From the NCBI RefSeq assembly GCF_000428945.1, contig NZ_AUAX01000001.1, positions 372,001-436,000 of the forward strand: DNA of 64,000 nucleotides, given 5' to 3'. This document shows positions 8,049-26,367 of this stretch, piece after piece. Position numbers and translations under genes: made by a program. Position 1 is the first letter of the stretch. Each line of letters starts with the position of its first letter. The notes below the pieces were generated by a model. The model had not been told where the DNA came from. It did no database searches and was given only the letters and a program-made list of their open reading frames with translations. Origin of the DNA: Hamadaea tsunoensis DSM 44101 (lineage in GTDB: Bacteria > Actinomycetota > Actinomycetes > Mycobacteriales > Micromonosporaceae).

Positions 8049-8102
8049 AACGCGCCGGGTTTGCTAGGGGCTACATGGTTAGGTAGCCGCCTCGGTGAGA
8101 CT

Positions 8103-8390
8103 TCGATCGAGTTCGCACCGTGAAACGCTTCCGGGCCGCGGGCCACAGCATACGAAAACGTCGATACACGTTCCCCGCGCAGCGTTGCCCGTCAAGGTCT
8201 CCGGGACGAGGCAGAGCCGACAAGTCAGCGCCTGACGAGCCCCGTCCCTCGTTCGCACTGTGAAACCGTTACGGAAGCCCAGGCTCAGCATGCGAAAGAC
8301 GTTGATACACGGTCCTCGCGAAGCGTTGTCTGTCAAGGTCTCCAGGAGGCGGCAAGCGGGCACGCCAATGCGCGAGCAGCTAGGACGGCG
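8103..8390 (+). repeat. Left array of ~140-bp direct repeat units (two copies)
   Basis: Two units start with GTTCGCACYGTGAAAC at 8111 and 8251, exactly 140 bp apart. Each contains CAGCATRCGAAA, a GTYGATACACG core, GCGTTGYCYGTCAAGGTCTCC and, in unit 1, CGCCTGACGAGCCCC. The first unit is preceded by CGATCGA, as in the right array. Around the core, AACGT and ACGTT can pair, and flanking CAGC can pair with GYTG, so each unit might fold. The array lies just beyond the 3' end of the NaeI-like gene; no protein-coding potential is evident. Confidence 0.8.
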
Positions 8391-8432: not shown

Positions 8433-10007
8433 TCACGAAGGGATGTCGGGAGCCTCGGCTGGTGGGTCGTTGGCAAGCGCCAGCCGCCACCGGCGCCCAT
8501 CGATCACCGCGACCGGCTCGGAAGCACTGTCCTCGGCGGGTACGACGCGGACACTCATATATGATCCCGGCTCTTCCAGAGAAAGACCAAGATCGGTGGC
8601 GATCCCGCGATGATTGGCGTACGCCGAGCCGAGTACGAGATAGCCCTCTTCCTTGAGTGCGCGGCGCGCATCCCGCACGCGTTTGGCGCTGTCCGTCTGC
8701 GTCACCAGGGTTGCCACGACTGTTCTGCTGATGGGTCGGCCCGGCACCCGGCGAAAGAATTCGTTGAGCCTGCGCTGACCCGGCGTGGTGCCGAGTATCG
8801 CCTCACGGTCGCGAGTGGGCAGGTGAAGCAGGGTGTTCTCCGGCAGCGAAACATCTCGGTGCAGCCACTGCAGCGCGGCGCGACCGTCGGCCGACAAGGC
8901 TGCCTTCCCATCCCGGTTGCCACCGGCCCGCAGAATGTCGGCGGTCACCCGGACGAGTGCCACCGAAACTCGTGACTCGCCGTCATCGCCGGTCACGAGG
9001 AGGCAGAGACCCGAGTCACGCCGAGAGAATAGCCAGTCGGACCGCCGGGAGAACTTGACATCGAAGGCGATACCAGCCAGTTCCAGATCCGATCTGCCGC
9101 CACTGACGAGGGAGAACTCTCTCATGAGTTCCAGCTCGATGCGGGCACTCAGCGAGCTCTTCTCGATTCTGGTCATCTGCTCCCAGGAGAACCGGCCAGT
9201 GTGCTGGCCGTCGTACATCTGGTCCAGCGACCGCCGTAGGACTGCGGCGAACCTCGTTCCGTCGGGGTCCAGCCGGAGCAATGCCCTGGCCAACGCTTCG
9301 AGGTCCGCGTCCGGTTCGCCCGGCTGGACAGGCCTTTGGGGTTCGGCCAACGCCACCGCGGCCGGATCCGACCCGTACGCCAGCCGCTCGGCCCGCCGGC
9401 TGTGCTCAGCAGGCTCCCACCGGCGGCGGGCTGCGGTTAGCTCCTGCATGGCCTCATCGCGCTCCTGCTCCGCCCGGCGCACCGCCTCGCGCAGTCGGGT
9501 CAGCTCAGCTAGGTCCACCTCCCGCGTGTCCTGCCGGCTCTGCTCGATCAACTGCCGCTGGACCTCCGCACGCAGTTGGGTCTCGGCCAGAAGATCGTCC
9601 TTGGTGTTCTCCAGCTGGTCCTTCAGCCGGCTGAGATCCCGGCGAAGGCGGGCAGCCTCATCCTGGCGCCGGTCAGCGGGTGTGGCGGTGCTGCTCGCCT
9701 CGCGCTGGAGGTTCTCGGCATGAATGAGTGCCCGTTCGCGGCGGGCGGCGGGCGTGGTGATAGTGACGATCGCCTTGATCAAATCGGTCTCCGACACGAG
9801 GTTCTCCCCGTTGAGTCGGCGTTGCAGTACTGCGTGACTAGGCACGCCGCGTTTGTGAGTGAAGTTCTCCGGGGTGAGGCGCTCGCGCAGCGCCCGCACC
9901 GAGAGACCCGCGTCGGTCAAGCACCTTTGTAGGAACTCGGCGAGCCGGTTGATCTCCTCGGTCTCGCCCGCAGGTCCCTGTCGGCGCCGCCCCGGAACCC
10001 CTGGCAT
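8433..10007 (-). CDS. HTH-coiled-coil-NaeI-like restriction endonuclease
   Basis: A 524-aa protein; ATG at 10007 is set by AAGGAG 5 bases upstream. Residues about 17-100 form a helix-turn-helix-like domain (LSVRALRERLTPENFTHKRG). Residues about 112-205 are a charged coiled coil. Residues about 230-490 match the NaeI endonuclease family from end to end, including DGQHTGRFSWEQM and NEFFRRVPGRPISRTVVATL. A catalytic set is visible: Glu291, Asp307, Asp316 and Lys318 (FDVKF), with the E-x15-D-x8-D-x-K spacing I recall for NaeI. No methyltransferase is nearby. It is flanked by repeat arrays and carries three TTGTCTCG boxes upstream. Probably a DNA-cleaving defence effector; the sequence it cuts and its trigger are unknown. 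Confidence 0.8.
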   Translation of the reverse strand: MPGVPGRRRQGPAGETEEINRLAEFLQRCLTDAGLSVRALRERLTPENFTHKRGVPSHAVLQRRLNGENLVSETDLIKAIVTITTPAARRERALIHAENLQREASSTATPADRRQDEAARLRRDLSRLKDQLENTKDDLLAETQLRAEVQRQLIEQSRQDTREVDLAELTRLREAVRRAEQERDEAMQELTAARRRWEPAEHSRRAERLAYGSDPAAVALAEPQRPVQPGEPDADLEALARALLRLDPDGTRFAAVLRRSLDQMYDGQHTGRFSWEQMTRIEKSSLSARIELELMREFSLVSGGRSDLELAGIAFDVKFSRRSDWLFSRRDSGLCLLVTGDDGESRVSVALVRVTADILRAGGNRDGKAALSADGRAALQWLHRDVSLPENTLLHLPTRDREAILGTTPGQRRLNEFFRRVPGRPISRTVVATLVTQTDSAKRVRDARRALKEEGYLVLGSAYANHRGIATDLGLSLEEPGSYMSVRVVPAEDSASEPVAVIDGRRWRLALANDPPAEAPDIPS

Positions 10008-10619: not shown

Positions 10620-10896
10620 CGGACCACTGCATGGGAAGACGTCGATACATCTAGCCGGAAAACTGTTGCCCGTCAAGACGTCCAGAACCCGGAGGCGCCG
10701 AAGGCGGAACTCCTGACGAGTTTTGATCGAGTTCGCACTGTGAAGCGCTTCCGGGTCCCCGGGTCCAGCATGCGAAAACGTCAATACATGTTCCCCGTGA
10801 AGCGCTGCCCGTCAGGGTCTCCAGGACGAGGCGAAGTCGACAAGCCAGCGCCTGACGAGCCCCATCTCGCGTTCGCACCGTGAAACCGTTACAGGG
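10620..10896 (+). repeat. Right array of ~140-bp direct repeat units
   Basis: A degraded unit has its core at 10641 (GTCGATACAT, then CTGTTGCCCGTCAAGACGTCC). A full unit starts at 10731 and a truncated third at 10871, again 140 bp apart. Unit 2 matches unit 1 of the left array and the third start matches unit 2 of that array (GTGAAACCGTTAC). About 170 bp is therefore directly repeated on both sides of the 2.4-kb cassette. The third unit stops where the tRNA-like attachment remnant begins. Confidence 0.8.
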
Positions 10897-10935
10897 CGGA
10901 CGGGTACTCGAACCGCGACCGGGGGATTATGAACT
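10893..10935 (-). repeat. Degenerate tRNA-Met 3'-half: left attachment-site remnant
   Basis: Bases 10893-10930 match the 3' half of the tRNA-Met gene at 26294 (GGCGG, CGGG, CTCGAACC, GCGACCG, GGGATTATGA in order), with two small indels and a few substitutions. Similarity ends right after ATTATGA, within the anticodon loop. This is the pattern left when an element integrates into a tRNA 3' half and the displaced half decays. Confidence 0.75.
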
Positions 10936-11164: not shown

Positions 11165-14100
11165 TCAGCCGTTGCGATGCGCCCGCTCCACCACCTCGTC
11201 CTCGCGCAACGGCCCGGTGTGATGACTTAGGCAGATCGGCACCTGGATCTTGCTGAAGCTCGTTCCCTCGCCGGCCGAGTAGAAGGTGCCCATCGGAAGG
11301 CTGCCCAGATCCTTCAGGTCGGCATTGCGAGACTGCGCCATCATCTGGGCCGCTTCGAGCTGAGTCTGCGCTGTCAGGCGGCCTATGAACTGGTTCGCGG
11401 TGTTGCCAAGCGCCTGATTGTTGATTCCCTTGGGCGCCTGGGAGGCGAGGACCACACCCAGGCCGTATTTGCGAATCTGCCGGATGATCTCGACGGTGCT
11501 GTCGGTGCTGGGGGTGGAGGCGCCGGAGGGTACGAAGTTCTGTGCCTCGTCCATCACGAGCAGCCCGCCAAGGGGGCGGTCGTTGGTGGGGTTGGCGCGG
11601 AACCAGGAGAACAAGGCACCCTGCAAGCGGCTGACGAACCGCGCCGATCCCTCTCGCGACAGGCCGACAAAGCTGATGACCGAGATGCGCGCGGACTTTC
11701 CTGCGGATGGTGTCAGCAGTACGCCAGGATCGACGGGCGTGCCCGACTCTCCGAACAGTGGGTCCGTGTCAAGCGCCGCCTCCAGAGTGTCTGCCATCTG
11801 CTCGGCCAATTTGCGGGTCCGAGTGTTCACGATGTCGGCTGGGGCGTCACCGAGCATCTCGATCAGCCCGGCTAGGTTCCTGCCGCCTTCGCGGGCGTAT
11901 CGCTCCAAGGCCCGGCTCAGCACGCCCAGCTGCTGGGTAGCCCGACCGCCGGTCTTACCTATGCCGGCTTGCGGCGCCAGCGCGGCAATGGTGGCGCCCA
12001 GCAGCCGCTTGAAGTCATCCTCGTCCCCGAGCACCGGGCCGAAATCGGGGAGCGGGTGAAAGCTCAGTGGACGCCCGCGGTTCAACCCGGGTGTCCAGAC
12101 CACCACCTCGGTCTCAGCGAAGTAACGCTGCGCCTCGCCTTGGTGAGTATCGGTCCACCCCCTTGGCGCGTCCGGCCAAGGGTCGCCGAGTCGGCCAAGA
12201 TCGTCATTGGGGTCCAGCACGATGGCAGATATGCCTCTCATCGCACACTGCTCGACGATGCGCTTGACGAGCACCGTTTTCCCGGATCCGGCCGCGCCGA
12301 TCACTACAGCGTGCTTACGGAATTGCTCAATGGCAACGGTGAACGGTCGGCCGCCCCGAGTAGTGGCGCCCAGGATGACGTGCGAACCACCCGGGTAGAT
12401 TTCGGGAGCCCCCACCGCGCCGCGCTCATCCAGATCACCCTCCATCAGGCCCTCGGCATCTGCATCCGCGGTGCCCACCGCGATGTCGTCATTTTCCGTT
12501 GGCGCGCCGAGATACGGCTGCAGATCGCTCACTATCGCGGCGAACACCTCCGTACGCGCCGCGGGGTGCTGCTGCCGCAACCAGACGTCCAGGCCGGAGC
12601 GGTGACTGTCGAGCATGGTGTGCAGAGCGGCGAACGTGCGCAGATCAGCCGCTCCGATCGGTAGCGCGAGGCCACCACGAGCGAGGAAGTCGGCTTTGAT
12701 CTCATCGGTCTTGGTGCCACCCGGATACGTGGTGTTCCGCAGCAGAAACAGGCTGCGGCTAGGAAGCCCTGTCTCCAATCCGGCTTCCACGACCGCGTTG
12801 TGCATTCTGGTCTGCGCCGCGCGGGCATTGTCTGTGGCGATCGCACGGAAGGACCAGTGCAGCTCGTTTTCGGTGGCATCGTCAAGGATGTACCGGAGCC
12901 GTGCGTGCAGCGCTGCCTTGCCGCCGAATTCGGTTTCCACTACGAAGCGGGACTCATCTCCGCCGAGCTCCTTGATCAAGCAGCGCAGCCCGGCGCCGAG
13001 GAGCGCGGGAATCGTCCCATCCTCGTTCGCCTTGTCGAGAGGCCCTATGTCATCGGCTGCGGCGCGGAGCTTGCTAAATTCCTCGGTCAGCACGGCGAGC
13101 TCGGTGGCGGGGACGGTTCGCGGGGAGATGTTGGCCCGGCTTCCCGGAGCCAGCGACAGCAGCTCGGTGACAGCGCCGCTCTCCAGACAATTTGCGATGT
13201 GCTCGGCGACCCGGATGAGCAGCCGCCGCGGCGTATACCGGTGAGGCACTCCGGCGAGTGCCTCCGGCCGTATCGGCCACGTCTGATAGGGCGGCGTGAA
13301 CTCCACCGACGCGTAGCCGGCACGGAAACGGTTGCCGATGATCGCCGCCGCGGTTGCCTCGTCGCGGATTTCCCCCAGGGTCGGCAGGACGGTGAAACGA
13401 TCGAGGGCTGAAAGTATCGCCGCGTGACTGATCTTTCGCCAGGTGTCAGGCTGGCATGCGATCACCATGAGGGTACGCCGAGCCTCCTCCCGCATGTCCA
13501 TCAAGCCCGCAGCGATATCGTTGCTCAGCCGGATAACAGCACGGCTCTCGCCGGACGCCGCTGAGGCCAGTGACGCCTCAGACGCCGAGACCAGGTTGTC
13601 GAGCTGATCGAAGGCGAACACCAGCGGCCCGACCAGGGCGAAGATGCGGGTGAGGTCGCGGAGCACCAGTTGCGCCGGTCGCTGTCGGGACGATAACCCC
13701 CACGCCGCCCGCTGACCCAGGTCCTCGTCGTTCAACGCCAGATATGCCTTGCCGATCTCAACTGCTTCTCCGGACGACGCGATCAGCGCGAGTGCACGGG
13801 CCGTATCCGCGGCCTCATTGCCCACCTGCCGATCCAGTCCGCGAATGCCGTGCACGAACGCGTCGAGGTGCGTACGAGTTAACGCACGCTCGCCCGTAAT
13901 GGCGGCGCGGGTCGCCTCGTCCAGCTCCGACAGCCGAGAAAGCTCGGCCAGCAGGTACACCAGCTGTTCCTGGCCGCCGTCGTCTTTGCGATACAGGCCG
14001 TCTACGAGGCTGCCGGTCGCGCTTTCCCAGAAATCACAACCGGTCACAAGCTTGATATAGAAGAAGAATCCACCACGCGCCTGGATTTCCTGGCGCGTCC

Positions 14101-14320
14101 AGCCGAGCAGGTGCGTCTTGCCCGACCCTCGTTCGCCAAGCGCGACGGCAGCAGTGGGCGCATGGTCACCATCGAGTGCGTTCATTGACCGGGCCAGCCG
14201 GGCGGACACTTCTGGGTAGAGCGCGTCGACGTGGTAAGACGACAGCGATGCCCAGACCTCGTCCGGCGTAGGCGCCGTGCTCACGTGCAGCGCGCCGAGC
14301 GCCTCGAGTTGCCGGTTCAT
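11165..14320 (-). CDS. Double P-loop ATPase: AAA-type N-half, HerA-like C-half
   Basis: A 1051-aa cytoplasmic ATPase. The N-half has Walker A GERGSGKT (residues 62-69) and a Walker-B-like LVFAFDQLDN (233-242). The C-half has Walker A GAAGSGKT (675-682), Walker B LLVMDEAQNF (920-929) and the arrangement of HerA/FtsK-type DNA translocases. The middle (about 330-640) is unassigned. Its start overlaps the stop of the winged-helix gene by ATGA, so the two are translationally coupled. HerA-like pumps are typically paired with nucleases in bacterial defence; here a DUF4365-type nuclease opens the same operon. It does not look like a plain BREX, Dnd or DISARM subunit to me. Confidence 0.8.
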   Translation of the reverse strand: MNRQLEALGALHVSTAPTPDEVWASLSSYHVDALYPEVSARLARSMNALDGDHAPTAAVALGERGSGKTHLLGWTRQEIQARGGFFFYIKLVTGCDFWESATGSLVDGLYRKDDGGQEQLVYLLAELSRLSELDEATRAAITGERALTRTHLDAFVHGIRGLDRQVGNEAADTARALALIASSGEAVEIGKAYLALNDEDLGQRAAWGLSSRQRPAQLVLRDLTRIFALVGPLVFAFDQLDNLVSASEASLASAASGESRAVIRLSNDIAAGLMDMREEARRTLMVIACQPDTWRKISHAAILSALDRFTVLPTLGEIRDEATAAAIIGNRFRAGYASVEFTPPYQTWPIRPEALAGVPHRYTPRRLLIRVAEHIANCLESGAVTELLSLAPGSRANISPRTVPATELAVLTEEFSKLRAAADDIGPLDKANEDGTIPALLGAGLRCLIKELGGDESRFVVETEFGGKAALHARLRYILDDATENELHWSFRAIATDNARAAQTRMHNAVVEAGLETGLPSRSLFLLRNTTYPGGTKTDEIKADFLARGGLALPIGAADLRTFAALHTMLDSHRSGLDVWLRQQHPAARTEVFAAIVSDLQPYLGAPTENDDIAVGTADADAEGLMEGDLDERGAVGAPEIYPGGSHVILGATTRGGRPFTVAIEQFRKHAVVIGAAGSGKTVLVKRIVEQCAMRGISAIVLDPNDDLGRLGDPWPDAPRGWTDTHQGEAQRYFAETEVVVWTPGLNRGRPLSFHPLPDFGPVLGDEDDFKRLLGATIAALAPQAGIGKTGGRATQQLGVLSRALERYAREGGRNLAGLIEMLGDAPADIVNTRTRKLAEQMADTLEAALDTDPLFGESGTPVDPGVLLTPSAGKSARISVISFVGLSREGSARFVSRLQGALFSWFRANPTNDRPLGGLLVMDEAQNFVPSGASTPSTDSTVEIIRQIRKYGLGVVLASQAPKGINNQALGNTANQFIGRLTAQTQLEAAQMMAQSRNADLKDLGSLPMGTFYSAGEGTSFSKIQVPICLSHHTGPLREDEVVERAHRNG

Positions 14321-14928
14321 GCCTTCCCGATCCTCAACAGGTGCCGAGGCTCACCACCGATGTCTACTGCGGCCTCGCGATCGTGCGCCGTGAGTGACTT
14401 CTGGTTAAGCTCTGCCATCAGGTGCACGTCGGGCTGCTCGATCATCCGGTCAAGCTCGGCGTCCACCACCTCGCGGGCAACACCTTCCAGCCACGGGCGC
14501 AACACTGACAGCTTGATCCAGCTGTTTGGCCCACGGCGTACGGTCAGTTCCGCGTACGCCGCGCGTATCCAATTCTCGATGTCTGGCTGGAAGAACTCTT
14601 CGAACTTTATGCCCGACCGCGCGAGATGCTGGCCGATGTTCTCCAGAACTGCGTACAGCACACCCGCCGGGAACTTTGAGTTATCCGGCCGTCCGGCAAC
14701 GAGAGCCGATTCGCACCAGCTGCGGCCGGCCGGGGCGAGCCGATATGTGTTCACTGCGCCACGCTTCTTCTTGGCGACTCGTTCGACACTACGGTTAACC
14801 TGCCGAAGTACCTTCGCATCGATTTCCAGGCCCGCGACATCGCGTAGTTCCCTGTTCGTCACGGGCCGGGCGACCACCATGAGCGCGAAGAGCGACGCCT
14901 GCCCCCGGACAGTCAGATCGGCTGCCAC
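14317..14928 (-). CDS. Winged-helix protein of the ATPase operon
   Basis: A 203-aa protein. Residues about 5-65 (LFALMVVARPVTNRELRDVA, then VNRSVERVAKKK) look like a winged helix, followed by a helical domain with a conserved-looking WIRAAYAELTVRRGPNSWIK stretch. The stop is embedded in the start of the ATPase gene (4-bp overlap), implying stoichiometric production. It may link the ATPase to DNA or to the other subunits. Family not recognised by name. The ribosome site on the coding strand is AGGAATG just before the ATG. Confidence 0.65.
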   Translation of the reverse strand: MAADLTVRGQASLFALMVVARPVTNRELRDVAGLEIDAKVLRQVNRSVERVAKKKRGAVNTYRLAPAGRSWCESALVAGRPDNSKFPAGVLYAVLENIGQHLARSGIKFEEFFQPDIENWIRAAYAELTVRRGPNSWIKLSVLRPWLEGVAREVVDAELDRMIEQPDVHLMAELNQKSLTAHDREAAVDIGGEPRHLLRIGKA

Positions 14929-14963
14929 AACATTCCTCCTGACATCGGATGAGATGAGACAGT

Positions 14964-16049
14964 TCAGAGTGCGAAACCCCGCTCGGGCACCAACTCCACC
15001 CGACCGGTAGTGCTGGACAACTCGCCCGCGACCGTGATCACGAGCCGCTCGCGGTGGGCGGCGATGGCCCGTTCATAGTCAGCCTGAGAACCAAGGCGCA
15101 CCCAGACCGCCCGCCGAGATCGTTGAAGATGCGCGGTGCGCAACTCGCCACGTACCTTCATGCGCCATCGGTCTTCACTTGCGGCATCGTCGTGGAGACC
15201 CTCGACGATGCCGGTTACTGTCGCCGGGCCTGAAGCATTCAGGCCACGCAGGCGCTCGGCAGCGGCCAGCAGGAGCGAGCCTGCGGTCTCCGGGAATGCA
15301 ACCGACTGAGATGTAGCGTCTAGTGGCCGTGCCCGTGCCCAGCGAAACGTGATCTGAAAGGGTTCGTCGTGTCCCGAGCCGGACAGCTCGCTCAGCGCCC
15401 TACAAAAGTCCGCCGAGACTCCCGCAGTCACCGTCTCGTCAAATGCTGAGGGATCTTGCGCTGCCACCGCCGTCTGAACCGCACTGACCGCTTCCAGCAT
15501 TTGAACTACGACCGCGCGGCCGCCCACCGCCTCGCCGCCGGGTACGCCTGCTATCGCGTCGGTAGCTAGGCGTACCTCGAAGATGTAGCTGCCAGCACGC
15601 GACGGGCCCAGTTCCGCTGCACGCAGGATGTCTGTCACCACACTCGGCGGCCGCCCCGCGAACGCGAAGTGGGGACCCTGCAGCACTGTCCGCGTAGCCG
15701 CGCCCAACACGCCGCGGACACCCTGCAGTGCCTTTGCACCGGACGTCAGCGGCGTGTACCCAGGGTCGCGCCCGGCTGGGAAGGTGTGAAAGAACTGCCT
15801 GTCCGCGTTTGGATGAGCAATGTCTCCGGCGATGTCGTCGGCCGGCCGGTCCTCTACAACAGACAGACAGCGCAGGATCTCCCGCAAGCGGCGGTCGCTG
15901 TCACCCATGCCATCCCGGCCTGGTACCAGCACTTCGTAGTCGTCGGCAGTACGCCATATGCTGGCGCCCTGCCACCCATGCGGGTCACGTTCCCATCCCA
16001 TGTCGGCCAGGTAGCTGACGATGTCGCCGACCCGTAATAGAACCTTCAT
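14964..16049 (-). CDS. Unknown 361-aa protein of the ATPase-nuclease operon
   Basis: Not recognised. It begins with MKVLLRVGDIVSYLADMGWE and a short domain rich in Asp/Arg (residues 1-80). It continues as an alternating alpha/beta protein with repeated Val/Ala strands and ends in a beta-rich tail (LVITVAGELSSTTGRVELVP). No nuclease, ATPase or membrane motif is apparent. It sits 8 bp after the DUF4365-type gene and 35 bp before the winged-helix gene on the same strand, so it is an integral operon member, perhaps a structural or sensing subunit. Confidence 0.6.
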   Translation of the reverse strand: MKVLLRVGDIVSYLADMGWERDPHGWQGASIWRTADDYEVLVPGRDGMGDSDRRLREILRCLSVVEDRPADDIAGDIAHPNADRQFFHTFPAGRDPGYTPLTSGAKALQGVRGVLGAATRTVLQGPHFAFAGRPPSVVTDILRAAELGPSRAGSYIFEVRLATDAIAGVPGGEAVGGRAVVVQMLEAVSAVQTAVAAQDPSAFDETVTAGVSADFCRALSELSGSGHDEPFQITFRWARARPLDATSQSVAFPETAGSLLLAAAERLRGLNASGPATVTGIVEGLHDDAASEDRWRMKVRGELRTAHLQRSRRAVWVRLGSQADYERAIAAHRERLVITVAGELSSTTGRVELVPERGFAL

Positions 16050-16057
16050 CGCGCGAT

Positions 16058-16561
16058 CTACCAGACCGACTGGGTCTCGGTGAGCCTGCGCAATGTCGTC
16101 GCCGTGAGCACATTCGCGGTGGGCACCTTCACTGGGTGCTTGCGTTTCCGATCGGGATTGGCGATTGGCTGCTCGTCACGCAGCGACACAAAATAGCCGA
16201 GGTTGCGGAGCAAGATGCCATCCATCGTGGACGTCGCGTATTGCCTGCTATCCGTCGGAACGCAGATGACGAACAGGAAGCGGGGCACGGTGTAATCCGG
16301 ACCTGCGAGCTGGCTGAACTGGCTCTCGCTGAGCCCCCGATAGACCAAGTTACCGGACGTTCCAGCAGGCTGACTCCAGGTCTTCACTTGCGCCTCGATA
16401 GCAGGCGAGTACACGCGCCCGTGGCGGCCGGTGGCACGAAATCCCAAATCGACCCCGTCGACGTCGAGATCTTCCTTGAAGACGATCAGACCAGCGGCGG
16501 AGGCCAGCACACGAACATAGTCCTCGCCAAACTTGCCCTGATGCTGGTTCGCATCGAGCAT
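16058..16561 (-). CDS. DUF4365-type PD-(D/E)XK nuclease-like protein
   Basis: A 167-aa first gene of the operon; start fixed by GGGAGGAAGCCGT before the ATG. The order GKFGEDYVRVLA (Glu13), VDGVDLGFR (Asp38) and IEAQVKTW (Gln58-x-Lys60) fits the DUF4365 domain. I know this as a restriction-endonuclease-fold family often fused to or encoded beside ATPases in defence loci. The Gln at the second acidic position is seen in some active PD-(D/E)XK members. Predicted role: the DNA-cutting subunit working with the HerA-like ATPase. Confidence 0.7.
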   Translation of the reverse strand: MLDANQHQGKFGEDYVRVLASAAGLIVFKEDLDVDGVDLGFRATGRHGRVYSPAIEAQVKTWSQPAGTSGNLVYRGLSESQFSQLAGPDYTVPRFLFVICVPTDSRQYATSTMDGILLRNLGYFVSLRDEQPIANPDRKRKHPVKVPTANVLTATTLRRLTETQSVW

Positions 16562-16950
16562 ACGGCTTCCTCCCCGACGTGACGTACGGTAGCCCGAAGC
16601 CTACGAGACGCTTCGACGCCTGTCAGCACCGAGAGAGGTGGATATCTACGGTTTCCAATCGATAGGAACGAAGATTTGGACAGCGATGGAGCGACCCATC
16701 TGCTGAACCGCTCGCCCCCAGAACACGGCATCCTGCAGTTACGACACCCTGGCGAGCCGTTCGCGAGGCGAGCTGCGCCGGGCTGCCGCTGCCGGTCCGC
16801 CACCGGCTAGCGCCGAATATTTCGCCGCCTACCGTCACTGGATCGTGGCTGTGGACCTCTGCCCTTCGGCCAGACCGCGACCACGATCGACGTTCGCCCC
16901 TTCGGTGTGATCGGGTCATGTCGAGACCGAGCCCTACGGAGGTGGCCTCG
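16562..16950. other. Divergent intergenic region
   Basis: About 390 bp between the DUF4365-type gene and the divergent nuclease gene. It must carry both promoters, but I cannot identify clear -35/-10 pairs. Short open frames here are Arg-rich and look like shadows. The sequence remains GC-rich, unlike the gene downstream of 17040. Confidence 0.4.
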
Positions 16951-19560
16951 ATGGGCTCACGCCCACGGACGAGACTCCAAGTCCCGCACCGCACCAAGAC
17001 GACAGGGTTACTGAATTGCAACGGACGGTCACACGACGACCTGCACAGCACATCGTTGTCAGACTTGACAGAAACCATGATGGTCAACGACGAGCAGGAG
17101 TGGGGAGCGTTGTCGAACGATCGGCGAGGTCGGCAAGTCATCGTGGACGGTCCAGATGGCGTCCGAACTCTTCTCGAGCGCATGGCACGTCATATGGACG
17201 GGCTCGTACCTGCAAAATCCTGGAGCGAGGTCGAGCAACAAGCACCCTCGATAATCCGTCACCACGTCGACGAAATGAAGCGCCTATTGCAGGGCCAGGA
17301 TTTATTCGATGTGCTCGAACTCGTGCGGCAGCATGAGATACCAATCACATTAGCCGGGCATAGGGAAAGCGAGTCGCAAGGCATTGCCGCAATTATCGAT
17401 ATAGTTGCTCTAGTGGCGCTCGGTGTCGGCCAAAGAACGGCGCCCATCAACAATGGAACCACTCCCTCAGATCCCCCATACCCAAACCAGATAATTGAAC
17501 CGCTATGCGCCCTTGCCCGCGATATTTTGAAGCTTGCCGCACTCATGAGTTTCTCGCTGATGGCCAACCCCAGCTATGGCCCTCTGGTCGAGCTGGCTAG
17601 CCAACTCCGTGGTGCCGAGCAGATGATTCGCGGCAAACACTACCAATCGATCGGAATTGAACTAAACCGCGGCATTCTCGATGCACCGCAGATAGCTTCT
17701 CTTCTGAAGGCGAATGTCGGCTTTACCTACGATGATGTAAGGTCAATTTCCGACGCAATAAGAGCCTGGTACGCGGGTGGCAAGAATTCCCTAATAGATC
17801 GGATCGGCGATGCGTCGATGCGGTACGGCCAGGCTGAACCACCACCAGACGACCTTGAATTATTGCGGCAAGCGTTTTCAGATCTTTTCATAAGTCCTGG
17901 TACTCACAGTTCATTCACCGCTGCCGACCTGGCCGAAATCAGTGGCGTCACACAAGACAGGATCTTGAGCGCGCTACAGATCTTTAGCAGGAACCTCGGC
18001 GGAGACTCTGAGGGTCTCATTACTGCGTTTGTCAATGGCCGAAACCCCCTGGCCGGCATTGACATTATCGGCGACGGATCTGGCAACTATCTCATGCTCC
18101 AGAATGGCGTACAGATCGATCATGTTCGAAGGTTGCTGGAGTCGCGGATCAAGGCCGCGGGAAACGGCAAGGCATGGGATCAGTATGGGCGGCGGCGCGA
18201 CGCCTTCGCGGAAGAGAAGGCTGGTAGTACCTTGGCGAGTCTGCTAGGTATGCCAGAGCCAACTTTCGTGGGCCTAAAGTACCTCGCACCATCGAGCAAG
18301 GACTGCGAATGCGATCTGAGCGCTTCGTCCTCGAATCCCCGCGAAAATACGCTGCAAACCGAGGGCGATGCCCTGTTCATAGTCGAAGACGTGGCCATAT
18401 GTCTTGAAGTCAAGGCTGGGGCGATCACCGACAAAGCCAAGAGCGGCAATGTTCAACGAGTTGCCGAGGATCTTAAGAAGACGATCGGCGAGGCAACAAC
18501 ACAGGCCCAGCGACTGGAATCACTGCTATTAGATAATCACGGATTGTGGCTTGCCAATGGAAAGTGGCTTGATCTCTCTGGTGTCCGTGAGGTCAGATCA
18601 GTCGTCGCTTGTTTGGATGACTTCGGCCCTCTTGCCATTGCAGCAGATGCCCTCGTCCGGGCAGGACTGCTCGGAGGTTCGTCAATGCCATGGATTGTCT
18701 CAATCCATGACCTGGCGGTAGTTGAGAAGGTAATAGACGACCCGGCCTCATTCCTACTTTACCTACGGAGGCGTACCGAGCCGTCGGTCGCGAAGCTCGT
18801 CGCCGCTATCGACGAACTGGATGTGTTGATGTGGTTCTTACACGGGGGCCTATACTTCGAAGCCGACCCCGATGCACTCTTTCAACGCTTTCCAAGGTCA
18901 CCAATGCCAACGAGTCGGGATCGTACTCGCTATCGGGAACAGATCGTCACACGAGTCGGAACTCTCACCGACAAACTTGATGCGTGGATGTATTTCGAAG
19001 AAGGTATAAGCAGTTTGCCGGCACCAAAGCCAACGCGGGCCGAGAATCCGATGATTCTAGGGTTGGTCAAGTCTATGCAAAACAGCCGCTCGCCCGGTTG
19101 GTTGCGAAGCGGAGCCGACCTTCTGAATCTTTCCTCCCGAACCCAAACGGCACTAGTAAATGACCTCAAGAAAGTCGTTGAGCAGACTCGCCGCGATGGC
19201 GACTTCCACAGCGTGTTTTACGCGTTCATGGGCGCCTGGGGCTACTCGCTGATTATCATAGCAACGCAACCGCGCTCGTATCCCACGGCGCGGAACCGCC
19301 TGTCCACGTATATGGCAGCGAAGAAACACCAACTCCAGGCCGATCGGGCAGTCGGGTTTCTCATCGACGAACAGCATCAGGTCGTTGGAGTAGAATATCG
19401 AAACGATCCCCCAGGAGAAGATGCGGACCTCGATGAGCTAGTTGAGCGCATGCACCTGGTACCCGTAGAGCGAATGCGCAATACGTTGGCTCCATCACCT
19501 AAGAGGCTGACGCCACGCAAGCCGAAAAAGGGATCGAAATCACATCGGAAGAAAAAGTAG
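16951..19560 (+). CDS. Large protein with PD-(D/E)XK nuclease core, low-GC
   Basis: An 869-aa protein if it starts at ATG 16951, which has GGAGGTGG 5 bases upstream. An ATG at 17077 is the alternative and coincides with the shift to AT-richer coding. A helical N-terminal half (to about residue 400) is unassigned. The centre carries a nuclease signature: FAEEKAG, CECDL (Asp455), EGDALFIVED (Asp473) and LEVKAG (Glu486-x-Lys488). The C-terminal third is helical and ends in a very basic tail (KPKKGSKSHRKKK). Codon use is clearly more AT-rich than the neighbours, a sign of separate acquisition. It is divergent from the ATPase operon and could be an independent restriction-like effector or its partner. 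Confidence 0.65.
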   Translation: MGSRPRTRLQVPHRTKTTGLLNCNGRSHDDLHSTSLSDLTETMMVNDEQEWGALSNDRRGRQVIVDGPDGVRTLLERMARHMDGLVPAKSWSEVEQQAPSIIRHHVDEMKRLLQGQDLFDVLELVRQHEIPITLAGHRESESQGIAAIIDIVALVALGVGQRTAPINNGTTPSDPPYPNQIIEPLCALARDILKLAALMSFSLMANPSYGPLVELASQLRGAEQMIRGKHYQSIGIELNRGILDAPQIASLLKANVGFTYDDVRSISDAIRAWYAGGKNSLIDRIGDASMRYGQAEPPPDDLELLRQAFSDLFISPGTHSSFTAADLAEISGVTQDRILSALQIFSRNLGGDSEGLITAFVNGRNPLAGIDIIGDGSGNYLMLQNGVQIDHVRRLLESRIKAAGNGKAWDQYGRRRDAFAEEKAGSTLASLLGMPEPTFVGLKYLAPSSKDCECDLSASSSNPRENTLQTEGDALFIVEDVAICLEVKAGAITDKAKSGNVQRVAEDLKKTIGEATTQAQRLESLLLDNHGLWLANGKWLDLSGVREVRSVVACLDDFGPLAIAADALVRAGLLGGSSMPWIVSIHDLAVVEKVIDDPASFLLYLRRRTEPSVAKLVAAIDELDVLMWFLHGGLYFEADPDALFQRFPRSPMPTSRDRTRYREQIVTRVGTLTDKLDAWMYFEEGISSLPAPKPTRAENPMILGLVKSMQNSRSPGWLRSGADLLNLSSRTQTALVNDLKKVVEQTRRDGDFHSVFYAFMGAWGYSLIIIATQPRSYPTARNRLSTYMAAKKHQLQADRAVGFLIDEQHQVVGVEYRNDPPGEDADLDELVERMHLVPVERMRNTLAPSPKRLTPRKPKKGSKSHRKKK

Positions 19561-23378: not shown

Positions 23379-24257
23379 ATGACCAAACACATCACCCACG
23401 ATCCGGTCCTACGGCTCCAGCATCAGCTCACGCAGCGCGATTGGCGGCTGCTCGGCTGGCTTCACGATCACCGAGTACTGACGACGTTTCAGATCGCCAA
23501 CGCGCTGTTCCCGACGCTCAACTACGCGCAGCGACGCCTCACCCAGCTCACCGGCCTCGGTCTGCTCGAACGGTTCCGGCCGTTCCGGCTCCAGGGCGGC
23601 AGCTACCCGTACCACTACGCGCTCGCGTACGTGGGCGAGCTTGTGGTTGCGGCTTCGCGAGGTATGCCGCCGCCGCGACGGGCTGACTCAACGGCACGGC
23701 TGCACCGCATCGCAACGAGTCGCAACCTCGACCACCGGCTGGGGATCAACGACTTCTTCACCGGCCTGGCCGGCTACGAGCGCAAGAGGGAGGGCGCTCA
23801 GCTCCATCATTGGTGGCCCGACACGCGACTGGAGAGGTTCACACCGCCGGGAACGACAGCGTTCGGTTATCCGCAGGCGGACGCGCTCGGTGTCTGGACC
23901 GAGGATCGACAGACGGTCGTCTTCTACCTCGAACACGACACCGGGTACGAGGCTCTGACCGTGCTGGCCGACAAGGTACGCCGATACACGGAATTCCACC
24001 GTCGAGGCGCACCTGCCTGGCCAGTGCTGTTCTGGCTGCACTCCACGGTTCGCGAGCAGCACCTCCACCGGCGGCTCGCGGAGACAGCAACGCGCTTCCC
24101 GATCGCGACAGCGGCTCGGGACCGCCTCGACGGGCGTACGCCGGCAGAAGCGATCTGGCGACTCGCGAGCGGTGCGCCGACGCTGCTGCGACTCGCAGCG
24201 CTCCCCATGCCGACTCCAGCCGACCTGGCGGCGTTCGACACAGAGACCCGCTCATAA
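23379..24257 (+). CDS. Replication-relaxation family protein
   Basis: A 292-aa protein from ATG 23379 with AAGGTGG upstream. The start is a winged helix (LLGWLHDHRVLTTFQIANAL, then QRRLTQLTGLGLLERF). The rest is a nuclease-like alpha/beta domain, with DALGVWTEDRQTVVFYLEHD around residue 175. This matches the replication-relaxation family found on actinobacterial plasmids and integrative elements, where it is thought to help mobilisation or replication. Its place upstream of the recombinase fits that role. Confidence 0.8.
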   Translation: MTKHITHDPVLRLQHQLTQRDWRLLGWLHDHRVLTTFQIANALFPTLNYAQRRLTQLTGLGLLERFRPFRLQGGSYPYHYALAYVGELVVAASRGMPPPRRADSTARLHRIATSRNLDHRLGINDFFTGLAGYERKREGAQLHHWWPDTRLERFTPPGTTAFGYPQADALGVWTEDRQTVVFYLEHDTGYEALTVLADKVRRYTEFHRRGAPAWPVLFWLHSTVREQHLHRRLAETATRFPIATAARDRLDGRTPAEAIWRLASGAPTLLRLAALPMPTPADLAAFDTETRS

Positions 24258-24774: not shown

Positions 24775-26334
24775 ATGGCCAAGAAGAAGCCCATCCGACG
24801 CCGCGACGCGATCACACCCGAGTCCCTCCTCCGCGTGGCGATATACACACGGAGGTCGACCGACGACGAACACCAGCCCTACTCGATCGAGGCGCAGACC
24901 CACCGGTTGGAAGCGTATGTGGCGAGTCAGCCGGGCTGGCAGATCAGCGCGAGCTACACCGACGATGCCTCCGGCGCGACGCTCGACCGCCCGGGACTGC
25001 GTGACGCTCTGACAGCTGCCCGCGACCGGCGATTCGATCTTCTGCTCGTGTACCGCCTCGATCGGTTCAGCCGTCGCATCGCCGACCTCGCGAACCTCAT
25101 GGACGAGCTGGATGCCGCGGGCGTGCACTTCCGGTCGGCCACCGAACCGTTCGACACGTCCAGCGCGGCCGGCCGCTTGTTCGTGCAGATGCTCGGAGCC
25201 TTCGCGGAGTTCGAGCGCGAGGTCATCATCGATCGCGTCATCAGCGGCATGGAGCGCAAGGCGGCCAAGGGCGAGTGGACATACGGCCCACGCCCCTATG
25301 GCTACACCGTCGACCCCACGACACAGCGCCTGTTGCCCCACCTCGACGAGGCGCCGGTGGTTCGCGAGATCTTCGAGCTGTACGCGCGCGTCGGCCTCGG
25401 CACGCGGGCGATCGCCGAGCGGCTGAACACGCAGGGCAGGCGTACCAAGAACGGCAAGCCGTTCTCCGGGCACACCGTGATCAGAATGCTCGTCAACCGG
25501 CTCTATCTGGGCGAGGTCGGGTTCCGGGAGGTCGTCGTTCCCGACGCGCACGAGGCGCTTGTCGACGAGGATCTGTTCCTCCGATGTCAGGCCGTCCTCA
25601 GCAAGCGGACCGATCCGCACTCATCGCGAGCCGCCGCGAACTCCGACTACCAGCTCACCGGCCTGATCACCTGTCCCGAATGCGGACACGGGTACGTTGG
25701 CACGTCCGCGACCGGCAAGCTCCGCCGCTACCGCTACTACACCTGCTTCAGCCGCGCCCGCTACGGCACCGCAGGCTGCACCGCCAGCCGCATCGACGCC
25801 GACCTCCTGGAGCAAGCGGTCAACCGAGCGCTTCTCGACCTGCTGGCCGACACCGATCTGATCATCGACGTCGTCGAGGCCGAGTGGGCGGTCCGCGCCC
25901 AGGACACGGCCAAGCAGCGCGAGGAGCTGGCCGGCATCTCCGGCCAGATCGCCGCCGCCGAGACCGCCGTCGACCGCTACCTCGCCGCGTTCGAAACCGG
26001 CGCCCTCGACGAGCGCACCTGCGGCCACCGCATCCGCGATCTTCATATCAAGATCGACCAGCTCACGGTACGCCGAGACGAACTGACAGCTCTCGTACAG
26101 TACGACCAGGCACGCGTACGCCCGGAAGACATCGCTCAAACCCGAGCGGAGCTGGCTCACGTGCTGGAGCATGGGGAGAACGGAGCGAAGAAGGCGATCA
26201 TCGAGGCGCACGTCGCCGAGATCAAGATCGACGGTCGGGATCTGATCCCTACATTCATGGTCCCCTATGAATTTCGCACAGGGGGCCAGGTTGTGGGGCG
26301 GGCGGGGCTCGAACCCGCGACCGAGGGATTATGA
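24775..26334 (+). CDS. Large serine recombinase (site-specific integrase)
   Basis: A 519-aa recombinase. The resolvase domain has the nucleophile Ser28 in AIYTRRSTDDE and conserved LLLVYRLDRFSRR and GAFAEFEREV. A recombinase domain follows (about 175-280). Next come a zinc-ribbon (CPECGHGY and later YYTCFSRARYGTAGC) and a coiled coil (about 375-440). The last codons (GRAGLEPATEGL) lie inside the tRNA-Met gene on the opposite strand, so the coding end is formed by the attachment site. It should catalyse integration into and excision from that tRNA. Confidence 0.93.
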   Translation: MAKKKPIRRRDAITPESLLRVAIYTRRSTDDEHQPYSIEAQTHRLEAYVASQPGWQISASYTDDASGATLDRPGLRDALTAARDRRFDLLLVYRLDRFSRRIADLANLMDELDAAGVHFRSATEPFDTSSAAGRLFVQMLGAFAEFEREVIIDRVISGMERKAAKGEWTYGPRPYGYTVDPTTQRLLPHLDEAPVVREIFELYARVGLGTRAIAERLNTQGRRTKNGKPFSGHTVIRMLVNRLYLGEVGFREVVVPDAHEALVDEDLFLRCQAVLSKRTDPHSSRAAANSDYQLTGLITCPECGHGYVGTSATGKLRRYRYYTCFSRARYGTAGCTASRIDADLLEQAVNRALLDLLADTDLIIDVVEAEWAVRAQDTAKQREELAGISGQIAAAETAVDRYLAAFETGALDERTCGHRIRDLHIKIDQLTVRRDELTALVQYDQARVRPEDIAQTRAELAHVLEHGENGAKKAIIEAHVAEIKIDGRDLIPTFMVPYEFRTGGQVVGRAGLEPATEGL

Positions 26335-26367
26335 GTCCCCTGCTCTGACCGGCTGAGCTACCGCCCC
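26294..26367 (-). tRNA. tRNA-Met (anticodon CAT)
   Basis: A 74-base cloverleaf on the minus strand: acceptor GGGGCGG pairing with CCGCCCC, D-arm GCTC-GAGC, anticodon stem GGGGA/TCCCT with loop CTCATAA, and T-arm GCGGG-TTCGAGC-CCCGC. CCA is not encoded. Anticodon CAT makes it Met, although an Ile2 (lysidine) identity cannot be excluded from sequence alone. It is the integration target of the element to its left. Confidence 0.93.

Follow-up and report, generated by a model that had tools for sequence, protein, structure and literature searches.

The stretch of 64,000 nucleotides analysed here (the window) comes from the soil bacterium Hamadaea tsunoensis DSM 44101 (Micromonosporaceae; contig NZ_AUAX01000001.1, positions 372,001 to 436,000) and carries a quartet of genes, A to D, that lie as four minus-strand open reading frames (ORFs) at the coordinates collected in Table 1. 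As an initial annotation made from the sequence alone had stated, the ORF list of the window shows these genes to be tightly packed: A and B are separated by 8 bp, B and C by 35 bp, and C and D overlap by 4 bp. What is new here is that the quartet joins two portable modules, the pairs A-B and C-D.

Gene A encodes a nuclease of the DUF4365 family, as proposed at the outset (Pfam PF14280, E 3.5e-12), and matches the PADLOC model PDC-M02A (E 1.8e-85). Among the rows of the quartet alignment with a letter at the position, D38, E56 and Q58 are each present in 21 of 21, K60 in 20 of 21 and E13 in just 17 of 21. We take D38, Q58 and K60 to be the catalytic residues from knowledge of the DUF4365 family, and by these conserved residues A is predicted to be a restriction endonuclease (REase) that is likely active.

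The 361-aa protein B had been described as unrecognised. This holds for Pfam and NCBIfam, in which it has no match, but not for PADLOC, in which it matches PDC-M02B (E 2e-134); A and B are adjacent PDC-M02A and PDC-M02B, the PADLOC phage-defence candidate pair PDC-M02. The PADLOC scan of the window covered six proteins (A to D, P0005 and P0006), and PADLOC and NCBIfam yield no single named system covering the whole quartet, so that PADLOC names two of the four genes but leaves the quartet unassigned. The AlphaFold2 model of B (mean pLDDT 86.6) has a HicA/dsRBD-like N-terminus, and about 80 residues at its C-terminus follow the OB-like order beta-beta-beta-alpha-beta-beta. In a Foldseek search of the PDB, ranks 1 to 6 are PriB or RPA chains, with weak E values of 0.07 to 0.2, and HicA-like chains are matched with a probability of 0.98 (1whz, E 0.33) or 0.96 (5yrz, E 0.60). 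In a comparison with viral models, that of B resembles an uncharacterised protein of Leptospira phage LE1 from end to end (E 1.1e-19, TM 0.5), and a further match is a siphovirus DUF6575 protein (E 2.3e-5); by these fold matches, B-like proteins may be phage-borne too. A tblastn search of 50,697 phage records found no relative of B, and plasmid records gave two weak Entomospira matches.

Protein C of the window is without a match in PADLOC, Pfam and NCBIfam, and no Pfam family matches more than one of 28 relatives. Its alignment contains, by eye, a sequence pattern like that of a winged helix-turn-helix (wHTH). The winged-helix label given to C by the initial annotation finds no confirmation in PADLOC, Pfam, NCBIfam or PDB profiles. 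Calmodulin-type PDB profile matches (best E 3.6e-5) were judged to be a chance helix-loop-helix likeness.

Both P-loop domains that had been assigned to D, one AAA-like and one HerA-like, are supported by Pfam and by fold matches. Pfam finds AAA_16 (slightly below the cut-off), HerA_C and DUF87, which places the AAA-type P-loop around residue 62 and the start of the HerA/DUF87 domain at roughly residue 645. In quartet rows with a letter at the position, G67, K68 and T69 of the AAA domain are kept in 22 of 22 and D238 in 23 of 23, while G680, K681 and T682 of the HerA domain, the Walker B residues D924 and E925, and Q961 are kept in all 23 rows. The AlphaFold2 model of D has a pLDDT of 86.5 and a pTM of 0.58, and its domain arrangement is therefore unsure. 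Its best Foldseek matches are archaeal HerA-NurA (2.0e-12) and SIR2/HerA (5.7e-12), and the 50 PDB matches listed, all of them HerA-type or coupling-protein ATPases, comprise archaeal and bacterial HerA (with NurA, SIR2 or DUF4297), TdpAB, the C-domain of DndH, and TrwB. In PADLOC, the best match of D is mad8 (E 6.7e-22), followed by HerA and weaker ATPase models. The AAA part is weakly similar to Hda (E 9.6e-7) and to the Pfam family ORC-CDC6-like (E 0.037), and the modelled middle domain has an alpha-beta-beta-beta-alpha-beta order that would be compatible with the inactive REase of the capture systems discussed below. An Actinomadura D (L044, 11685-16223) reaches 1512 aa, with a long Gly/Ala-rich low-complexity stretch between its middle and HerA domains.

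Table 1. Coordinates of the quartet, of motifs within D and of the surrounding element in the window.
Feature	Position	Strand	Basis or remark
Gene A, DUF4365 PD-(D/E)XK-type nuclease, 167 aa, PADLOC PDC-M02A	16058..16561	-	Pfam and PADLOC
Gene B, 361 aa, PADLOC PDC-M02B	14964..16049	-	PADLOC and AlphaFold2 model
Gene C, 203 aa, GTG start, probable DNA-binding (wHTH-like) adaptor	14317..14928	-	Constant neighbour of D; fold without library confirmation
Gene D, 1051-aa double ATPase, N-terminal AAA and C-terminal HerA/FtsK	11165..14320	-	Pfam, AlphaFold2 and Foldseek
AAA-domain Walker A motif in D (residues 62-70)	14111..14137	-	Quartet alignment
HerA-domain Walker A motif in D (residues 676-682)	12275..12295	-	Quartet alignment
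Middle domain of D, residues 405-604, possible inactive REase	12509..13108	-	Secondary structure of the model
att-like repeat, 232 bp past the 3' end of D	10915..10932	+	GCGACCGNGGGATTATGA, identical to the tRNA-Met copy at 17 of 18 bases
Second att-like repeat, within tRNA-Met (26293-26367), where the recombinase gene ends	26317..26334	+	Repeat search
Serine recombinase of the element	24775..26334	+	Resolvase, Recombinase and Zn-ribbon domains
Element gene for a replication-relaxation protein	23379..24257	+	Pfam Replic_Relax, E 2.2e-50

Conservation and transfer of the quartet

Related loci were defined by a B at least 40% identical and by a readable neighbourhood, and the order, strand and close packing of A-B-C-D are kept in 22 of the 23 distinct loci so obtained. 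The proposal of a unit of the HerA-plus-nuclease type is thus borne out by a four-gene set that 22 further distinct loci conserve, a recurrence far in excess of chance. When 84,980 species genomes were scanned with the B alignment, 23 loci came up, of which 22 have A-B-C-D on one strand and in the same order, the contig of the 23rd ending inside B; with three loci common to the family and species scans, the distinct quartets number 22 plus the window. Two gaps widened by gene-caller truncation (B-C in L009, C-D in L046) yield nearly full-length C and D by tblastn. The hosts are Streptomyces (10), Micromonosporaceae (3), Actinophytocola, Amycolatopsis, Kibdelosporangium, Umezawaea, Actinomadura and Frankia. 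A record titled Rhodococcus rhodnii NRRL B-16535 (L043) shares a stretch of about 20 kb with Kibdelosporangium aridum L046 at 91-92% identity; the species name of the record therefore looks doubtful, and Rhodococcus is not counted as a host.

In a survey of 200 genomes of the window's family (D threshold E <= 1e-30, with the three best first-look candidates scored per genome), relatives of B were found in 42 and relatives of D, as C-D, in 121. B and D stand side by side in at least four, namely the window's own genome, G102, G105 and G195. The D proteins of the latter three are 50-66% identical to that of the window, the other full-length Ds listed or aligned about 34-45%. The nearest relatives of the window's proteins are found in Streptomyces (B about 70%, D up to 69%), whereas its B shares 56-58% identity with those of the remaining family members, a pattern in line with horizontal transfer.

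Among the 23 quartets, pairwise distances computed for A, B, C and D correlate with one another (r between 0.947 and 0.983), and none of 2000 permutations gave values as high; these correlations indicate shared inheritance, not contact. Furthermore, a single stretch of about 5.6 kb, containing A-D and little else, is 94% identical in DNA between S. apricus (L027) and S. hokutonensis (L030), with no flank match elsewhere in 21 kb. The quartet is thus both inherited and transferred as a unit. Flanks are held in common elsewhere: L030, L032, L033 and L034 have downstream genes in common at 85-88%, their A-D blocks being 88-95% identical, and L043, L045 and L046 have both flanks in common. In a B tree of 33 rows, the quartets form one clade (99/98). 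With L010 and L024 added (35 rows), quartets and L010 together form a clade (98/98), and the quartet label needs two changes, which would mean that C-D was lost in L010 or else gained twice. On the D tree, a single quartet clade is not rejected (p 0.425), the best tree needing two changes.

The A-B and C-D pairs in other surroundings

The A-B pair was followed in 20 of the 49 other B matches listed in the family, with 14-15 kb read at each. Three of the 20 are quartets and 17 are without C-D in the sequence read; A was detected in 16 of these 17 (in L026 as a fragment only) and not in L020. DNA motors neighbour the pair in six of the 17. In L011 (6847-14378), genes for DrmA and DrmB immediately precede A-B, the locus being DISARM-like; in L023, a DrmD-like helicase is encoded divergently near A-B; and L016, L019, L022 and L025 have a SNF2 helicase of about 940 aa just downstream on the same strand. 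Helicase genes converge on the A-B locus in L013, and the four queries used found no such helicase or motor gene in the remaining ten loci. A-B is thus a portable pair that is found also beside other DNA motors.

The C-D pair was surveyed in 42 loci without A-B, comprising 40 mostly best-scoring listed matches and two paralogues of the window's genome, and the classes of neighbour were assigned by tblastn near the pair. C adjoins D in all 42, as it does in all 22 quartets. The expectation that homologues keep the operon together therefore holds for the close family (22 of 23 loci, the exception being L010), but not for the distant one, in which 17 of 20 B loci are without C-D and 42 C-D loci are without A-B.

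A DUF559-type nuclease lies upstream of C-D in 23 of the 42 loci, two of which are also near a 700-aa gene, and DUF559 was confirmed by Pfam in the five neighbours scanned. A divergent gene pair is found in six (L063, L068, L073, L074, L078 and L079), whose Ds form one clade; in L068, taken as the representative, the larger protein is WD40-rich with, by eye, a trypsin-like start, and the smaller one is Pfam Trypco1 (trypsin-co-occurring domain). Four loci have an AIPR/AbiU gene downstream, and two have upstream a protein of 700-730 aa with at most a weak TPR match. The other seven have no recognised partner; a CBS-domain gene adjoins C-D in one of them and PDC-M55B in another. When mapped on a 65-protein D tree, the six neighbour classes need seven changes (the minimum being five), compared with a mean of 33.9 after shuffling and none of 200 shuffles as low; the partner type of C-D follows the D tree. 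A single clade for the DUF559 partner is rejected (p 1.6e-37), and hence this partner was gained or lost more than once.

The arrangement also occurs at a distance. A Tsukamurella record has DUF559, a hypothetical protein and DUF87 annotated in a row, as a distant DUF559-C-D. D was found in three plasmid records, and a Methylobacterium (Alphaproteobacteria) plasmid (L090, 4246-9255), for which the PLSDB table lists no genes, has DUF559, a C-like gene and D in tandem, the DUF559 confirmed, the D 34% identical and the C an ORF read by eye. The window's genome itself has three full-length copies of C-D with differing neighbours. The third of these (L006, 4612-9712) has no recognised partner on the same strand; a divergent Abi_2-like gene (E 9e-6) lies 539 bp off, with an ATPase-like gene behind it. 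As a motor pair, C-D stands beside several other effector-like genes.

The surrounding element

The initial annotation placed the operon on a mobile element, and the att-like repeats, a serine recombinase and a Replic_Relax gene agree with this. The repeat GCGACCGNGGGATTATGA occurs twice in the window, against a chance expectation of 0.01 matches in shuffles, and its second copy is the extreme end of the serine recombinase gene. A 27-base version reaching further into the tRNA is found in the tRNA copy only, so the likeness past the repeat core is imperfect; the 17-base core has one further copy in the genome, on contig 44. A gene with a helix-turn-helix lies near the recombinase and Replic_Relax genes. 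The 15.4 kb between the repeats reads as a putative integrative element that carries A-D as cargo, at the end away from the recombinase. G+C is 0.66-0.73 at 26-40 kb versus 0.56-0.68 at 10-26 kb, and as it is still 0.63-0.68 left of the repeat, it marks the right border only.

Inside the element, an 880-aa protein is encoded divergently from A (16918-19560, plus strand). It has no match in Pfam, NCBIfam or PADLOC, and its EVKAG stretch is, by eye, a possible nuclease motif. Just outside the repeats, a NaeI-type restriction endonuclease (8433-10007, minus strand; Pfam E 4e-88) is flanked by a 171-nt direct repeat, 85% identical (8102-8272 and 10722-10892), the second copy of which stops 22 bp short of the att-like repeat.

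The quartet among known systems and its probable role

Rakesh, Aravind and Krishnan (2024; PMC10853773) describe, in the part of their paper available to us, a class of "HerA/FtsK capture systems" that combines an Orc/Cdc6-type AAA, HerA and an REase. They propose that the Orc/Cdc6 and HTH parts localise to invader DNA while HerA/FtsK pumps DNA to the endonuclease, and they note that the Orc/Cdc6 branch has an inactive REase between the AAA core and a C-terminal wHTH; the available part of PMC12839542 takes the same view of these systems. Insofar as these texts define the class, the quartet resembles it in having an AAA, a HerA/FtsK, a probably active REase and a small, probably DNA-binding protein in one neighbourhood and in a mobile context, the parts of such systems being located in single or several polypeptides. 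Two features of the capture branch, a HerA/FtsK with intact Walker motifs and an active-looking REase, are both present. The quartet differs from the class as so described in its nuclease, which is DUF4365, and in the extra protein B with its OB-like fold, while its inactive REase, wHTH and Orc/Cdc6 assignment remain unconfirmed. 'DUF4365', 'OB-fold', 'actinomycet' and 'DUF559' have no occurrence in the main text of PMC10853773. Hence, the quartet is likely a new variant of the Orc/Cdc6 capture type, rather than a proven member.

The earlier statement that the combination matches no known system is not supported, because A-B is the PDC-M02 pair and because AAA, HerA and REase together make up the capture class as set out in the available part of PMC10853773. 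The quartet is not wholly undescribed. Literature searches, which did not reach preprints, found no description of A-B-C-D as a set in the titles, abstracts and passages that they covered.

DUF4297-HerA and SIR2-HerA share with the quartet a HerA ring combined with an effector enzyme, and the HerA domain of D is of the same fold. SIR2-HerA is a two-component system with an effector other than DUF4365, and we know of no N-terminal AAA on the HerA of either system, nor of a B or C protein in them. By its architecture, the quartet would work like such HerA-nuclease defence systems. DUF4297-HerA differs from it in being two-component and in having another effector, and it cuts DNA once the nuclease and the HerA ring assemble (PMC11291478, available in part); activation by assembly is also stated in the accessible part of a review (PMC12198126).

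In addition, A and B match the PADLOC models of PDC-M02, while C and D match none of them. The likeness to DISARM (DrmA/DrmB/DrmD) lies in the A-B relatives found in the DrmA-DrmB locus or beside DrmD- or SNF2-type helicases; membership was rejected, no Drm model being matched among the six window proteins scanned. The HerA part of D has Mad8 (PADLOC mad8) as its best PADLOC match, but the other five scanned proteins match no mad model, and membership in MADS was rejected as well. With SPARDA (DUF4365-APAZ) the quartet shares a DUF4365 nuclease that, according to the part of PMC10810196 available, degrades DNA nonspecifically upon activation with a short Argonaute; membership was rejected, as no APAZ or Argonaute match was found among the six proteins.

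The anatomy, conservation and co-inheritance of the four genes are shown here, whereas their role in defence, their activity, the assembly of a complex, its trigger and its outcome (clearing of the invader or death of the cell) are inferred. With a probability of about 0.6 we read the quartet as an actinobacterial motor-driven restriction system of the HerA/FtsK-capture type, directed against invading DNA. This reading is favoured because order and packing are kept in 22 loci, the distances are correlated and A-D was transferred as a block; because A and B are PADLOC defence candidates and the neighbours of C-D include DUF559 (23 of 42) and AbiU/AIPR (4 of 42); because D folds like HerA-NurA and SIR2/HerA and the genes lie on an element with att-like ends; and because DUF4297-HerA (PMC11291478) and DUF4365-Argonaute (PMC10810196) cut DNA once activated, as the accessible parts of both papers report. 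The mechanism would be as follows. Judging from its domains, D would form a ring via its HerA domain and pump double-stranded DNA, and its AAA domain and the small protein C would load or localise it on invading or replicating DNA. B may bind exposed single-stranded DNA or DNA ends via its OB-like domain, a suggestion that follows from a weak fold match, and so couple the nuclease to the motor. By the example of characterised DUF4365 and HerA-nuclease systems, A would be inactive until assembly and would then degrade the DNA delivered. By analogy, the motor would be D and the cutter A, with C helping through DNA binding and B acting as an adaptor or sensor that binds nucleic acid.

Several observations weigh against this reading. 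The OB match of B is weak (best E 0.07), the wHTH of C is unsupported by the PDB profile search and the Pfam scan of its relatives, and residues 405-604 of D are unsupported as an REase by hhalign against DUF4365 and by PDB and Pfam profile searches. L010 (A about 44%, B 43-45% identical) has genes A-B only, with no C-D and, by eye, an adjoining transposase-like gene. The close family is rare, as seen from an even sample of 396 genomes of the phylum (E <= 1e-20, five candidates scored per genome), in which the window's own is the only case, and from the at least 4 of 200 in the family. The presence of C-D relatives in 121 of 200 family genomes is also compatible with a housekeeping role, and the clustering of neighbour classes on the D tree is partly an inheritance of whole neighbourhoods, L053-L055 having flanks in common. 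Finally, literature searches found no phage or plasmid assay of any quartet member.

A possible, if rather unlikely, alternative is abortive infection, in which A would cut all DNA unspecifically after D or B senses infection and thereby kill the cell. A Results heading in the accessible part of PMC11291478 names defence via abortive infection for DUF4297-HerA, and the nonspecific degradation reported for the DUF4365 nuclease with a short Argonaute (PMC10810196, likewise in part) points the same way; nevertheless, directed processing of DNA is no worse an explanation for a processive motor combined with several parts that probably bind DNA. We hold it unlikely that the PDC-M02 pair and the C-D motor are two independent systems side by side with no joint function. 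The 17 of 20 sampled B loci without C-D, L010 among them within the quartet B clade, and the 42 C-D loci without A-B would be accounted for in this manner, but not the fixed order and short gaps in 22 loci, the distance correlations of 0.95-0.98 or the transfer of A-D as a single block between Streptomyces; moreover, apart from L010 the quartet Bs are one clade (98/98), and one quartet D clade is not rejected (p 0.425).

It is a little less probable still that C-D is a HerA-NurA- or FtsK-like housekeeping or repair machine, with A as its repair nuclease. The 121 of 200 family genomes with C-D relatives and the archaeal HerA-NurA as the best Foldseek match of D would agree with this, but the distribution is patchy, the window's genome has three full-length C-D copies with differing neighbours, the neighbours are exchanged and include AbiU/AIPR, and the quartet is cargo on an integrative element. 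A function in stability or transfer of the mobile element (partition, incompatibility), and not in host immunity, is improbable: although the operon lies 232 bp inside one att-like end and the conjugative coupling protein TrwB is among the matches of D's HerA domain, the downstream genes common to L030, L032, L033 and L034 look ordinary and unlike element genes, L027 and L030 have no flank in common, inspection by eye of the quartet neighbours listed showed no recombinase, and partition needs no nuclease.

Beyond the reading of the quartet as a motor-driven restriction system, we tentatively consider a combinatorial immune architecture, a view that has rather more against it than for it. Here, A-B would be a universal cartridge of nuclease and adaptor for unrelated motors (AAA-HerA, DrmA/DrmB, and SNF2/DrmD-type helicases), and C-D a chassis for unrelated effectors (DUF4365-B, DUF559, AbiU/AIPR, and the WD40/trypsin-like protein). 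If this is true, the quartet is the meeting point of the two, with motor and effector separately exchangeable and joined through the adaptor B. Whether a common motor exchanges its effectors can be put to a direct test. The PADLOC copy used lacks a model for C and covers D by general HerA and mad8 models only; since C-D is common in the family, a frequent actinobacterial defence chassis may therefore go unannotated. PDC-M02, in turn, would gain a mechanism and a tie to a DNA motor, and B would be the part that may let one nuclease serve HerA, SNF2 or DISARM-type motors.

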